In this document: piece after piece, positions 4,840-10,645 of the stretch
How the letters are laid out: every line of letters starts with the position of its first letter
How positions within the stretch are numbered: position 1 is the stretch's first letter
Source: Sinomicrobium weinanense
GTDB taxonomy: Bacteria; Bacteroidota; Bacteroidia; Flavobacteriales; Flavobacteriaceae
Direction of reading: 5' to 3'
Assembly (NCBI RefSeq): GCF_018863395.1
Contig: NZ_JAHKRR010000009.1
Span: forward strand, 62,001-126,000
DNA: 64,000 bases
Translations under genes and position numbers: made by a program
The notes under the pieces: generated by a model
Databases searched by the model: none
The model's input: the letters and a program-made list of their open reading frames with translations, nothing else
What the model was told of the DNA's origin: nothing

Positions 4840-5628
4840 ATGCCGGTTTTTGAAGGAATTGTTATCTTTATTCAAAACTCAGCATTGGAAATTCCTTTTT
4901 CCTTTAACCTGTTCGGTTATTCCATAAACATCCACCTGGTATTGGAATACCTGGCCTTTTTTGTTGCTTTCCGGTACTATCTGTTTCTGAGGAAAAGAAG
5001 TAACGATACCATCAGCAACACCAACAGGCTATCCATTATACTCGGGGCAGCCATCGGGGCATTCCTGGGCTCCCGGATTGTTGGAGCCTTGGAAAATCCT
5101 TTTTTTATCATCAATGAGATCTCTTTTATTCAACTGCTGAATGTCAAGACCATTATGGGCGGTTTGTTTGGCGGTTTGCTGGGTGTTGAAATTGCTAAAA
5201 AGATCATTGGCGAAACCCGGTCCTCGGGCGATCTGTTCGTATTTCCCATTATTTCCGGCATTTTTATCGGCAGGATCGGTTGTTTTTTATCGGGTATAGA
5301 TGAATTTACCTATGGAAAAGAAACCTCGTTCTTCCTGGGGATGGACCTGGGTGACGGACTGCTCCGGCATCCGCTGGCCCTTTATGAATTGTTGTTTCTG
5401 CTGATCCTCTTCACCGGATTGAAATACATAAAGACCCATATAATACTCCAATCCGGAGAACTCTTTAAATACTTTATGATCGCCTATTTCGGTTTCCGTT
5501 TTTTTATGGAATTTTTAAAACCCAACCTGTTTTTTGTGTTGGGCCTGAGCTCTGTTCAATGGCTTTGTATTGTTTGTTTGCTATATTATCGAAAAATCTT
5601 TTTAAAACCTCTTCTTTATGCCCGTTAG
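4840..5628 (+). CDS. Divergent Lgt-family membrane protein
   Basis: A 262-residue integral membrane protein related to prolipoprotein diacylglyceryl transferase (COG0682), which moves diacylglycerol from phosphatidylglycerol to lipoprotein cysteines. Family traits are about seven hydrophobic segments, MGGLFGGLLG, GRIGCFLSG and RHPLALYE near the C-terminus. It departs from true Lgt at key points. The glycine-rich segment reads TIMGG where functional Lgt has a conserved His (HGG), and the GRxxNFxN signature reads GRIGCFLS, with Cys and Ser replacing Asn residues. It is therefore probably a paralogue acting on another lipid or glycerophosphate substrate. Its stop overlaps the start of the radical SAM gene by 11 bases, so the two are translationally coupled. 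The housekeeping lgt is not in this window. Confidence 0.75.
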   Translation: MPVFEGIVIFIQNSALEIPFSFNLFGYSINIHLVLEYLAFFVAFRYYLFLRKRSNDTISNTNRLSIILGAAIGAFLGSRIVGALENPFFIINEISFIQLLNVKTIMGGLFGGLLGVEIAKKIIGETRSSGDLFVFPIISGIFIGRIGCFLSGIDEFTYGKETSFFLGMDLGDGLLRHPLALYELLFLLILFTGLKYIKTHIILQSGELFKYFMIAYFGFRFFMEFLKPNLFFVLGLSSVQWLCIVCLLYYRKIFLKPLLYAR

Positions 5629-7009
5629 AAAGTACAATTACTACGATTTTACCTTAAGCCTGTGCCCGGAATGCCTGAGGCGTATCGATGCGAAGATCGT
5701 TTTTGAGGACAATAATGTCTTTATGCTGAAAAGGTGCCCCGAACACGGAAACTCCAGGGTGTTGATAGCCGATGATGTGGTGTATTACAAGAACATACGC
5801 AACTACAACAAACCTTCCGAAATGCCGTATACTTTCAATACCAAAACGCATTATGGCTGCCCGTACGATTGCGGATTGTGTCCCGATCACGAACAGCATT
5901 CCTGCCTGACTATCGTTGAGATCACCGACCGCTGCAATTTAACATGCCCGACCTGTTATGCAGAATCATCACCACATTACGGAAGGCACCGCTCTTTTGA
6001 AGAGGTAAAAAAAATGCTGGATACCATTGTTAAAAATGAAAAAGAACCCGATGTGGTGCAGATCAGTGGTGGCGAGCCTACCGTACACCCCGATTTTTTC
6101 AGGATACTGGATTATGCCAAAACCCTGCCGATAAGGCATTTAATGGTAAACACCAACGGAATTAAAATTGCCAAAGACAAAGCCTATGCCGAAAGGCTGA
6201 AAAGTTACACCCCCGATTTTGAGCTTTACCTTCAGTTTGATTCTTTCGAAAAAGAATCGCTCCATACGCTGCGGGGGGCCGACCTCACCAGGATCAGGGA
6301 ACAGGCCATTGAAAACCTCAACGAGGTCAATCTGTCAACCACACTGGTCGTTACTTTACAAAAAGGGCTGAACGATCACGAAATGGGAAAGATCATAGAC
6401 TACGGGCTTCAACAGAAATGTGTTCGCGGAGTTACCTTCCAACCTACACAAATAGCCGGACGTACAGAACATTTCGATGCCGGGCTAAACAGGATCACGC
6501 TTACCGAGACCCGGAGGAAAATACTGGAACAAACCGATGTTTTTAACGAAGACGACCTTATTCCCGTTCCCTGCAACCCCGATGCCCTGGTCATGGGATA
6601 CGCGCTTAAACTCGGCGGAAGTGTCTTTCCGTTGACCCGCTATATCAATCCCGCAGACCTGTTGGACAACAGTAAAAATACCATTGTATATGAACAGGAT
6701 GAAAACCTCCAGGGCAAAATGATAGAACTTTTCAGTACGGGAAATTCGGTAGAATCTGCTGAAAACAATTTAAAATCGATCATGTGTTGCCTGCCCGGTA
6801 TCGATGCCCCGGATTTAGGTTACGACAATCTGTTCCGGGTGATCATCATGCAATTCATCGATGCTTATAATTTTGATGTAAGGGCCATTAAAAAATCTTG
6901 TGTGCATATTGTAAACAAAGACTACAAGATCATCCCGTTCGAGACCATGAACCTGTTTTACAGGGATGACAAACAAACACTTTTAGAAGAACTGAGAAAC
7001 ACTATCTGA
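5618..7009 (+). CDS. Radical SAM enzyme resembling archaeal tetraether synthase (MJ0619/Tes-like)
   Basis: 463 residues. The N-terminus has a zinc-ribbon-like Cys cluster (C16, C19, C40). A second block, CPYDCGLC (C81, C85, C88) followed by C96, leads into the radical SAM motif CNLTCPTC (C106, C110, C113) that binds the SAM-cleaving 4Fe-4S cluster. SGGEPTVHPDF is the SAM-binding GGE motif. The spacing CPxDCGLCPxH, then EITDRCNLTCPTCYA, matches my recall of the MJ0619 family, whose archaeal members join isoprenoid chains into membrane-spanning tetraethers. Bacterial homologues exist with unproven roles. Coupling to an Lgt-like membrane protein and two tiny membrane proteins supports a lipid or lipoprotein substrate. 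The exact reaction is unknown; other methyl- or C-C-forming radical SAM activities are possible. Confidence 0.75.
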   Translation: MPVRKYNYYDFTLSLCPECLRRIDAKIVFEDNNVFMLKRCPEHGNSRVLIADDVVYYKNIRNYNKPSEMPYTFNTKTHYGCPYDCGLCPDHEQHSCLTIVEITDRCNLTCPTCYAESSPHYGRHRSFEEVKKMLDTIVKNEKEPDVVQISGGEPTVHPDFFRILDYAKTLPIRHLMVNTNGIKIAKDKAYAERLKSYTPDFELYLQFDSFEKESLHTLRGADLTRIREQAIENLNEVNLSTTLVVTLQKGLNDHEMGKIIDYGLQQKCVRGVTFQPTQIAGRTEHFDAGLNRITLTETRRKILEQTDVFNEDDLIPVPCNPDALVMGYALKLGGSVFPLTRYINPADLLDNSKNTIVYEQDENLQGKMIELFSTGNSVESAENNLKSIMCCLPGIDAPDLGYDNLFRVIIMQFIDAYNFDVRAIKKSCVHIVNKDYKIIPFETMNLFYRDDKQTLLEELRNTI

Positions 7010-7011
7010 TT

Positions 7012-7218
7012 ATGCAAAACTTAATATTAACCGTAAACGGAGAAGGCTTTGAGATGCTCTTATATTTTATTCTGGCCATTATGTTCGGCCCGCCCGTTCT
7101 GTTTGCCATTATCGGTATCCTCTTCAGAAAACGTAAAACAGTGGCAAAAGTCTTTTACATTCTTGCCGCTGTATACCTGGTTATTGGTTTGGGTTTATGC
7201 GGATCCATGATGCTGTGA
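7012..7218 (+). CDS. Small membrane protein (68 aa), radical SAM operon
   Basis: Starts 2 bases after the radical SAM stop, so it is in the same operon. Two hydrophobic helices (about residues 14-36 and 45-66) flank a basic turn, FRKRKTVAK, suggesting a hairpin in the inner membrane with the loop in the cytoplasm. No family recognised. Confidence 0.65.
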   Translation: MQNLILTVNGEGFEMLLYFILAIMFGPPVLFAIIGILFRKRKTVAKVFYILAAVYLVIGLGLCGSMML

Positions 7219-7277
7219 TTTATTGTTTTTAAGTCAGAAGGCTTGTCAGAACTTTAAGTTTTTATATATTTAACTTA

Positions 7278-7457
7278 ATGAAAAACAAGTTTTTAAAATT
7301 ATCAGGCATCCTTATCTTTATGTTCGGGATCATCGCTTCTACCGTCTACCATACGACCACAAGAGAAGATATCCTGTGGCTGGACTTTGTGCTGGGCACC
7401 ATAACCGGAGTAGGCATCGGCCTTACCATTGCACTGATACGAAAAGCAACTTCATAG
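7278..7457 (+). CDS. Small membrane protein (59 aa)
   Basis: ATG at 7278 opens a 59-codon frame ending TAG at 7457. The product starts MKNKFLKLSG, then has a hydrophobic segment (about 9-22), a polar middle (TTTREDILW) and a second hydrophobic segment (about 37-54) with glycines, ending RKATS. Basic N-terminus and two helices look like a real two-pass protein rather than chance. It lies 60 bases after the previous small membrane gene, same strand, so it is a likely fourth member of that locus. No family recognised. Confidence 0.55.
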   Translation: MKNKFLKLSGILIFMFGIIASTVYHTTTREDILWLDFVLGTITGVGIGLTIALIRKATS

Positions 7458-9442: not shown

Positions 9443-10645
9443 ATGAAAAAAATAATAGTATTGCTAATTGCCTGTTTATCGATCGGTCACTCTTCATTCG
9501 GCCAGATCAGATATGCCAATGACCAGATAAAGACCGGTGCGGAACAGACCGAAAAATATCTCCCCCGCTTAAAAGGAAAAAGGGTTGCCATAGTAGCCAA
9601 CCCCACCAGCATAATCGGAAATACCCACCTGGTGGACAGTCTTTTAAAATTAAATATAAATGTTGTCAAAGTATTTGGCCTGGAGCATGGGTTTCGCGGA
9701 AATGCCAGCAACGGAACTCCGGTTAAGGACGAAATAGATCCTATGGGATTCCATATCATATCTTTATACGGAAAGAAGAGGAAACCTTCTGCAGAAGACC
9801 TTTCGGATGTAGACATCGTTATTTTTGATATACAGGATGTGGGATGCCGTTTTTATACCAACATCAATGCCATGCGCAATGTAATGGAATCCTGCGCCAG
9901 GAACAATAAAGAGTTCCTGATCCTGGACAGGCCCAACCCGAATGCCTATTTAGTGGACGGCCCCATACTCGATATGCGGTTAAAATCCGGTATAGGCCAG
10001 TTCCCTGTTCCGATTGCCCACGGACTGACAATGGCGGAATTTGCCCAAATGATCAATGGAGAACAATGGCTCCCAAACGGGTTAAAATGCAAATTATCCA
10101 TTGTCAAGGTAAAAAATTACAACCACGATATGCTGTATAAGCTACCGGTGAACCCGTCCCCGAACCTGAATACCGAGGCCAGTATCCTGCTTTATCCGTC
10201 TACTTGTCTCTTTGAGGGTGTTGCGCTTAATCATGGCAGGGGAACGGATTACCCGTTTACAGTAATCGGCGGCCCTAATCTGAAGGGCATATACTCCTTT
10301 TCTTTTACACCGGTAAGCAAGAAAGGAATGAGCGAAAGGCCACTGTATATGAATGAAGTCTGTTATGGTATAGACCTGCGAAATACTGATCTGAAGAAGT
10401 TGGTAAAAAGCAAAAAGATAGAATTGAAATGGATTATTGAACTCTATAAAAACCATCCTGATAAAGCACATTTTTTCGATCGCTCCATAAGTGACCAGAT
10501 CGGTAATATAGATTATTTGGCGGGTAATTACGAGTTCAGAAAACAAATCGAAAATGCTGTTCCTGAAAAAGAAATACGAAAGTCCTGGGAGGCAGGACTT
10601 GAAAAATATAAAGAAATGAGAAAGAATTACCTGCTTTATCCCTAG
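9443..10645 (+). CDS. DUF1343 protein, NamZ-like exo-beta-N-acetylmuramidase (GH171)
   Basis: 400 residues with a Sec signal peptide (MKKIIVLLIACLSIGHSSFG, probably cut before Q21), so periplasmic or exported. Conserved DUF1343 blocks are VANPTS, GLEHGFRG (E81-H82, active-site region in NamZ), DVDIVIFDIQDVGCRFYT, LDRPNP, LEGVALNHGRGTDYPF-like and a GGP motif. The characterised family member releases terminal N-acetylmuramic acid from peptidoglycan fragments, feeding muropeptide recycling, which many Bacteroidota rely on. Position directly after mtgA fits. Substrate is inferred from family. Confidence 0.85.
   Translation: MKKIIVLLIACLSIGHSSFGQIRYANDQIKTGAEQTEKYLPRLKGKRVAIVANPTSIIGNTHLVDSLLKLNINVVKVFGLEHGFRGNASNGTPVKDEIDPMGFHIISLYGKKRKPSAEDLSDVDIVIFDIQDVGCRFYTNINAMRNVMESCARNNKEFLILDRPNPNAYLVDGPILDMRLKSGIGQFPVPIAHGLTMAEFAQMINGEQWLPNGLKCKLSIVKVKNYNHDMLYKLPVNPSPNLNTEASILLYPSTCLFEGVALNHGRGTDYPFTVIGGPNLKGIYSFSFTPVSKKGMSERPLYMNEVCYGIDLRNTDLKKLVKSKKIELKWIIELYKNHPDKAHFFDRSISDQIGNIDYLAGNYEFRKQIENAVPEKEIRKSWEAGLEKYKEMRKNYLLYP

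Follow-up and report, generated by a model that had tools for sequence, protein, structure and literature searches.

A co-inherited trio of a Tes-like radical SAM enzyme, a divergent Lgt paralogue and a small tail-cysteine membrane protein: a candidate lipid-modification system of Bacteroidota

We describe a set of three genes from Sinomicrobium weinanense, located in a 64,000-nucleotide stretch of contig NZ_JAHKRR010000009.1 (the window; its genome is labelled G000 in our counts). The genes are in tandem on the + strand: lgt2 (4840..5628), coding for a divergent Lgt paralogue of 262 amino acids with a PF01790 domain; rSAM (5618..7009), coding for a Tes/TrsS-like radical SAM enzyme of 463 amino acids; and tm1 (7012..7218), coding for a membrane protein of 68 amino acids with two transmembrane (TM) segments and an invariant cysteine, Cys63, five residues from the C-terminus, which is a candidate substrate or partner of the other two. 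The lgt2 assignment was made from the open reading frame, Pfam and NCBIfam models, the predicted fold and an alignment, and that of rSAM from the open reading frame, Pfam and NCBIfam models, PDB matches and the predicted fold. On these sequences and structural models, we give about even chances to the reading that the trio is one accessory system, whose product would be a small membrane protein carrying a lipid modification. The three genes are inherited together and lie side by side, and tm1 combines a TM helix with the invariant Cys; lgt2 has a predicted Lgt fold and keeps the two arginines by which Lgt handles its phosphatidylglycerol donor, and rSAM has a predicted Tes fold with most of the Tes metal-binding motifs. 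Lipid or lipoprotein modification, already suggested by the sequence-only reading of the window, is still the best reading of the locus; the invariant tail Cys had been missed there, and it offers lgt2 a plausible dedicated substrate.

We investigated the co-inheritance of lgt2 and rSAM in a family sample of 249 genomes, with thresholds of E <= 1e-100 for rSAM and E <= 1e-30 for lgt2. Thirty-two of the 249 genomes contained rSAM, and lgt2 was found in exactly those 32; the two genes were on different contigs in G726, and another species of the window's genus (G642) had neither. In a class-level set of 295 Bacteroidia, rSAM was present in 18 genomes and lgt2 (at least 275 bits) in those 18 and in G076, the next lgt2 score being 69.5 bits. 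In G320 and G527 lgt2 was not adjacent to rSAM and was found elsewhere in the genome (299.7 and 254 bits, respectively). These samples share a few genomes. A strict functional link between lgt2 and rSAM is supported, and the patchy distribution of the trio is as for an accessory trait. The arrangement of the genes points the same way: lgt2 and rSAM lie on the same strand in 80/80 relatives and overlap by exactly 11 bases in 50 of the 80, as the 3' end of lgt2 does with the start of rSAM in the window; the arrangement is not due to chance.

The small protein tm1 exhibits two predicted TM segments and the C-terminal end ..VYLVIGLGLCGSMML. In an alignment of 80 tm1 sequences (79 loci and the window), the tail Cys was the sole fully invariant column, with several further columns at 79/80. 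The last Cys was found 3-11 residues from the C-terminus in 80/80 sequences and was mostly preceded by I, V or L. tm1 lacks the layout of a bacterial lipoprotein, with an N-terminal signal peptide, a lipobox and a small residue before the Cys, and cleavage by lipoprotein signal peptidase is unlikely because the residue before the Cys is a large one (I, V, L) in most copies. On average, the 12 residues that precede the last TM segment carry a net charge of +3.35, the first 14 residues one of -1.3 and the tail one of about 0; since positive charge thus clusters before the last TM helix, the C-terminus and its Cys should, by the positive-inside rule, face outward to the periplasm. We also examined the slot 3' of rSAM. 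An open reading frame coding for a TM segment plus a tail Cys was present in this slot in 80/80 loci of the Flavobacteriaceae type, including L047, whose tm1 had been missed by BLAST, compared with 3/80 on the antisense strand and 22/330 in slots after other long open reading frames. In the window's own genome only one tm1-type protein was found (next match, E 0.43), so tm1 looks like a dedicated substrate.

More distant loci gave a similar picture. Tail-Cys TM proteins were detected in all of the 18 class-level genomes (18/18), the L127 copy being about 2 kb away, and in 14/16 further phylum-level genomes (32/34 combined, the genuine Tes of G345 being set aside); these calls follow criteria that we set ourselves (hydropathy, Cys near the end) and were made partly by eye, so that only the 80-locus count is a controlled one. 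Many of the class- and phylum-level proteins had no BLAST match to tm1 and showed similar ends, such as VLIIGFGVCMSNLK, LLQGLCALGIFVN and LLSGGMCIFLPQPL. In most loci the length of the small protein is 60-100 residues. No tail-Cys protein was found at L109, where rSAM is at the contig end. At L092, L096, L100, L102, L103, L125 and L126 two small tail-Cys proteins stand in tandem, which suggests that there are several substrates, or that the two form a heterodimer.

The rSAM protein contains an HMPTM zinc ribbon (residues 8-51) and a radical SAM domain by Pfam. Its best NCBIfam model was TrsS (NF045646) with 329.1 bits, below the cut-off of 490, followed by Tes (NF045702) with 297.6 bits, below the cut-off of 450. 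The best PDB match was MJ0619 (7TOL), with E 4.2e-74 for the single sequence and E 2.8e-81 for a profile of 15 relatives. An AlphaFold2 model (pLDDT 70, pTM 0.75) gave 7TOL again as first fold match in the PDB, with E 1.4e-32 and TM 0.73. Compared with the cofactor map and motif definitions of GDGT-MAS in the available part of PMC9433317, rSAM carries the rubredoxin motif CX2CX20CX2H, the [Fe4S4]N motif CX3CX2C with His and the RS motif CX3CX2C. The corresponding residues, namely the rubredoxin-type site C16-X2-C19-X20-C40-X2-H43, the N-terminal auxiliary site C81-X3-C85-X2-C88 with H91/H94 and the RS cluster site C106-X3-C110-X2-C113, are invariant in 15/15 relatives, as are the C-terminal cysteines C319, C390, C391 and C428. 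The motifs CPxDCGLC (here CPYDCGLC) and CNLTCPTC, the 11-base overlap and the four open reading frames named in the sequence-only reading were all found again. Its view of rSAM as Tes-like was borne out as kinship, 7TOL being the best match both in sequence and in predicted fold; rSAM itself falls outside Tes, its score lying below the cut-off and Ile standing in for Tyr459. M411 of rSAM aligns with the labile Met439 of Tes, and two Tes cysteines are replaced, C438 by Ile410 and a later one by Glu442. Because the C-terminal Cys set and the Tyr459 position differ from those of Tes, rSAM is best seen, from its sequence, as a further subfamily beside Tes and TrsS. In a tree of 33 rSAM sequences one branch (support 87/86) split the Lgt-linked proteins from the others; the tree is unrooted and its branches are long, and it does not establish that the Lgt-linked rSAMs arose once. 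A TGA codon first flagged in L117 as a possible selenocysteine was rejected, since the sole in-frame stop there is the terminal one.

The lgt2 protein scored 79.3 bits against PF01790 (E 3.7e-22; gathering cut-off 24.9) and only 30.7 bits against TIGR00544, the equivalog model of true Lgt (cut-off 118.9). By phmmer against the PDB, lgt2 alone gave nothing useful, and the profile search did work; a predicted model (pLDDT 81) had E. coli Lgt (5azb) as its sole match, with E 9.7e-7, the next being E 0.19. The genome contains three PF01790 genes: lgt2, at 79 bits, and two that score strongly, at 232 and 214 bits. An alignment was built of 28 module-linked lgt2 paralogues, which come from Bacteroidota and Actinomycetota, together with E. 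coli Lgt and both genuine copies of the window's genome. Asn146 of E. coli Lgt is replaced by Cys in 28/28 paralogues (Cys148 in the window), Tyr26 by His in 26/28 (His32 in the window), and no His occupies the His103 position in 28/28. Gly142, Arg143, Gly154, His196, Pro197, Glu202, Tyr235 and Arg239 are kept in 28/28; in the window Arg145, Arg220, Tyr216 and Glu224 correspond to R143, R239, Y235 and E243, respectively. Both genuine copies retain Tyr26, His103, Arg143, Asn146 and Arg239. According to the portion of PMC13251419 available to us, E. coli Lgt absolutely requires Y26, H103, R143, N146, G154 and R239; among these, lgt2 has kept R143, G154 and R239 and changed N146, H103 and Y26. 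The same source, as far as it was accessible, calls H103 poorly conserved in Lgt, and thus the loss of H103 alone says little. It also records, in the part seen, a second Lgt of M. smegmatis, MSMEG_5408, with Y26H and N146C and an activity 'presumed low'; on that partial text its signature is identical to that of lgt2. The divergence of the Lgt homologue, reported earlier as lacking the conserved His and Asn, is therefore upheld for both residues and by the TIGR00544 score. Since two genuine lgt genes exist in the genome, the case of a cell without any other lgt, which would have spoken against the earlier reading, does not arise, and we rejected lgt2 as the sole Lgt of the cell. An orphan lgt2 was seen in G076 (L155 / L167; 275 bits), with Cys at 146, Gln at 26 and Asn kept at 149, and no rSAM at E <= 1e-30; it is perhaps a decaying remnant or put to a different use.

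Lgt active sites are located on the periplasmic side of the membrane. The tail Cys of tm1 could be an Lgt-like acceptor because it is predicted to lie on that same side, and by analogy with Lgt biology lgt2 would transfer a phospholipid-derived group to it. The cytosolic rSAM would, by analogy with Tes, carry out 5'-deoxyadenosyl radical chemistry on lipid tails; in the simplest case it would couple or alter the acyl chains of the donor lipid, much as Tes acts on archaeol, and most likely it would do so ahead of the transfer because rSAM is cytosolic. This would yield a small protein of the inner membrane whose C-terminal tail cysteine bears an unusual lipid. The invariant Cys148 and the nearly invariant His32 perhaps point to a changed lgt2 chemistry with a covalent or thioester route, which is speculation from the alignment. 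We regard as a tentative and rather unlikely possibility the more specific proposal of a new protein lipidation in Bacteroidota and Actinomycetota, in which the Tes-like enzyme would cross-couple or rebuild phospholipid acyl chains and lgt2, with Cys148 in place of Asn and probably His32, would transfer the lipid to the tail Cys, yielding a bilayer-spanning or ring-closed anchor.

Several points weigh against a trio that makes a lipidated tm1. The lipidation chemistry is one that we infer from sequence, and the order of its steps is uncertain, because rSAM is cytosolic and the tm1 Cys is predicted to be periplasmic. As Tyr26, His103 and Asn146, required in E. coli, are changed in lgt2, it may transfer by another reaction or not at all. 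In rSAM the Met439/Tyr459 pair of Tes is incomplete, with Ile431 where Tes has Tyr459; both residues are said, in the available text of PMC9433317, to be fully conserved across 1000 archaeal GDGT-MAS homologues. The rSAM model is of moderate confidence only (pLDDT 70). Lgt-like partners also accompany the rSAMs of actinobacteria and of the L119 type, and these rSAMs lack C81/C85/C88. Finally, G076 carries lgt2 without rSAM, and in G320 no tail-Cys protein was seen near rSAM or near the distant lgt2.

Other explanations have been weighed on the same evidence. The trio could belong to a free-lipid pathway, in which rSAM would make membrane-spanning or cross-linked lipids of the diabolic-acid or branched glycerol dialkyl glycerol tetraether (brGDGT) type, lgt2 would shift diacylglyceryl between lipids and tm1 would be a scaffold or membrane adaptor of rSAM. 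Free lipids are the substrates of Tes in the accessible part of PMC9433317, and brGDGT synthesis is proposed for bacterial Tes homologues in what was available of PMC8941075. However, a scaffold would have no need of one invariant Cys across small proteins that otherwise differ, and no Lgt-like gene lies within about 6 kb of the genuine Tes of L120, from the same phylum, the Bacteroidota (493.8 bits, cut-off 450); we consider this pathway unlikely. Dedicated and fast-changing small proteins beside a radical SAM enzyme also recall the precursor peptides of ribosomally synthesised and post-translationally modified peptides (RiPPs), and tandem pairs occur at L092, L096, L100, L102 and L103 and in Mycobacterium branderi and M. 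avium. rSAM would then act on tm1 itself before its insertion or in the course of it, for example by forming a thioether on the tail Cys, and lgt2 would provide a secondary lipidation or an anchor; DAG-RiPPs are indeed modified peptides that enter the lipoprotein pathway, according to the part of PMC12636315 at hand. Such a RiPP-like system seems quite unlikely to us, as the studied member of the rSAM superfamily acts on lipids, rSAM has the Tes domain layout, and the tm1 tail is scarcely conserved except for the Cys.

It is improbable that tm1 is a redox or iron-sulfur partner supplying electrons or a cluster ligand to rSAM, with lgt2 binding lipid without catalysis. The C-terminal Cys set of rSAM, unlike that of Tes, with Ile and Glu for C438 and the later Cys, and the change in lgt2 of residues essential in E. 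coli would fit such a role, but rSAM itself retains four invariant C-terminal Cys, the tm1 Cys is predicted on the opposite side of the membrane, and Arg143, Arg239, Glu202, Tyr235 and Gly154 are kept in 28/28 lgt2 paralogues. Ordinary lipoprotein maturation, with lgt2 as a spare lgt placed here by chance, agrees with a PF01790 score above gathering and is nevertheless very improbable in view of the perfect co-occurrence with rSAM in the family sample, the three changed E. coli-essential residues and the genome's two genuine lgt genes. The trio as a viral or prophage feature was rejected as well: scans of viral contigs gave two weak rSAM matches (23-27% identity) in one and none in the other.

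The trio is flanked 5' by an elongation factor 4-like gene and 3' by a FAD-dependent oxidoreductase-like gene, names that we gave from reading the translations. Between tm1 and the latter, positions 7278..7457 code for a second tiny membrane protein of 59 amino acids with one or two TM segments and no Cys. The coupling of all four genes that had been proposed holds for lgt2, rSAM and tm1, which co-occur, and not for this protein, which we rejected as a part of the trio: it was matched in 1/80 loci only, L079 (Sinomicrobium), 4 kb from rSAM, where the copy (10213-10392, 74% identical) is again directly 5' of the FAD-oxidoreductase gene. It may go with that gene.

Plasmid records were searched by tblastn; ten were retrieved and nine opened (H6 was left out). 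Four of the nine contained the trio, those of Persicobacter, which is still a Bacteroidota, Mycobacterium branderi, M. avium and Nonomuraea. Identity to the window's rSAM is about 31% for the actinobacterial proteins, and the small proteins beside them end in ..SGGLCTGLNPADYAG, ..TVGVCTGLNPAMYTGA, ..TAGICTGLNPAMYTWR, ..SAGYCTGLNPSDYRSY and ..SAGICTGINPSLYG. The partner in Nonomuraea (L124, 3129-4235) has 368 residues; its N-terminal part is long and rich in Pro and Gly, and the tail-Cys membrane segment is fused to it. The other five opened records, one Mycolicibacterium and four haloarchaea, showed a methyltransferase neighbour and no annotated Lgt. On the haloarchaeal plasmids L123, L182 and L184 the neighbours of the Tes/TrsS-like rSAM are a methyltransferase, a DUF547 protein and either a peroxiredoxin or a redoxin-domain protein; this is a separate neighbourhood that appears to be undescribed. 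Between rSAM and the Lgt-like gene, L117 and L118 carry an ICMT-like methyltransferase gene (PF04140), with the tail-Cys protein 3' of the Lgt-like gene; such an insertion of an ICMT-like membrane methyltransferase (PF04140), in two distant Bacteroidota, has the coordinates 5883-6497 in L132 and 4784-5377 in L133. This variant of the module may methylate the product.

Tes homologues exist in bacteria not known for such lipids, as stated in the available parts of PMC8941075 and PMC9433317, and metagenome surveys list bacterial Tes homologues as possible brGDGT producers. One large subfamily of these homologues now gains fixed partners and a testable candidate substrate, one Cys in a small membrane protein, and it should not be read as a tetraether biomarker. 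The proposed lipid modification of a protein, if true, would be one not seen before, and a role is suggested for the N146C Lgt paralogues, including MSMEG_5408, described in the accessible text only as of presumed low activity. Our literature searches found no published description of the trio combination, or of it via TrsS; subscription papers were mostly outside their coverage and an earlier account is possible. The three-gene set is thus apparently undescribed.

The trio can be compared with several known systems. With Tes/GDGT-MAS (MJ0619, 7TOL, NF045702), rSAM shares the domain order, the predicted fold, the rubredoxin, auxiliary and RS motifs and the Met439 equivalent M411; it differs by its identity of only about 30%, by Ile431 at Tyr459 and by another C-terminal Cys set, and it is bacterial and has an Lgt-like gene and a tail-Cys protein as its partners. 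The (seleno)protein TrsS provides the best NCBIfam score of rSAM, below the cut-off (NF045646), whereas the TrsS-like genes L122, L123 and L182-L184 adjoin a methyltransferase gene, with no annotated Lgt. In common with Lgt (E. coli b2828, 5AZB, TIGR00544), lgt2 has the predicted fold and the equivalents of Arg143, Arg239, Glu202, Tyr235, Gly142 and Gly154, and it departs from it by N146C (28/28), the loss of His103 (28/28), Y26H (26/28) and a TIGR00544 score below the cut-off. DAG-RiPPs (ChrH/DybH MNIO lipopeptides), which together with MYXO-CTERM lipidation come nearest in idea, resemble the proposed trio system in that diacylglycerol is added to the Cys of a small modified peptide (PMC12636315, in the part available). 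They use a lipobox, the ordinary Lgt/LspA/Lnt and an MNIO enzyme, whereas in the trio there is no lipobox, the Lgt paralogue is a dedicated one and the radical enzyme is Tes-like. The MYXO-CTERM/myxosortase system also has an invariant Cys beside a TM segment in the C-terminal region, with a predicted Lgt-like lipidation (PMC11980579); its Cys precedes the TM segment, followed by an Arg-rich cytosolic tail, and a protease cleaves the protein. In contrast, no protease gene was seen in the trio, and tm1 departs from the MYXO-CTERM architecture with its Cys after the last TM segment and a tail charge of about 0.

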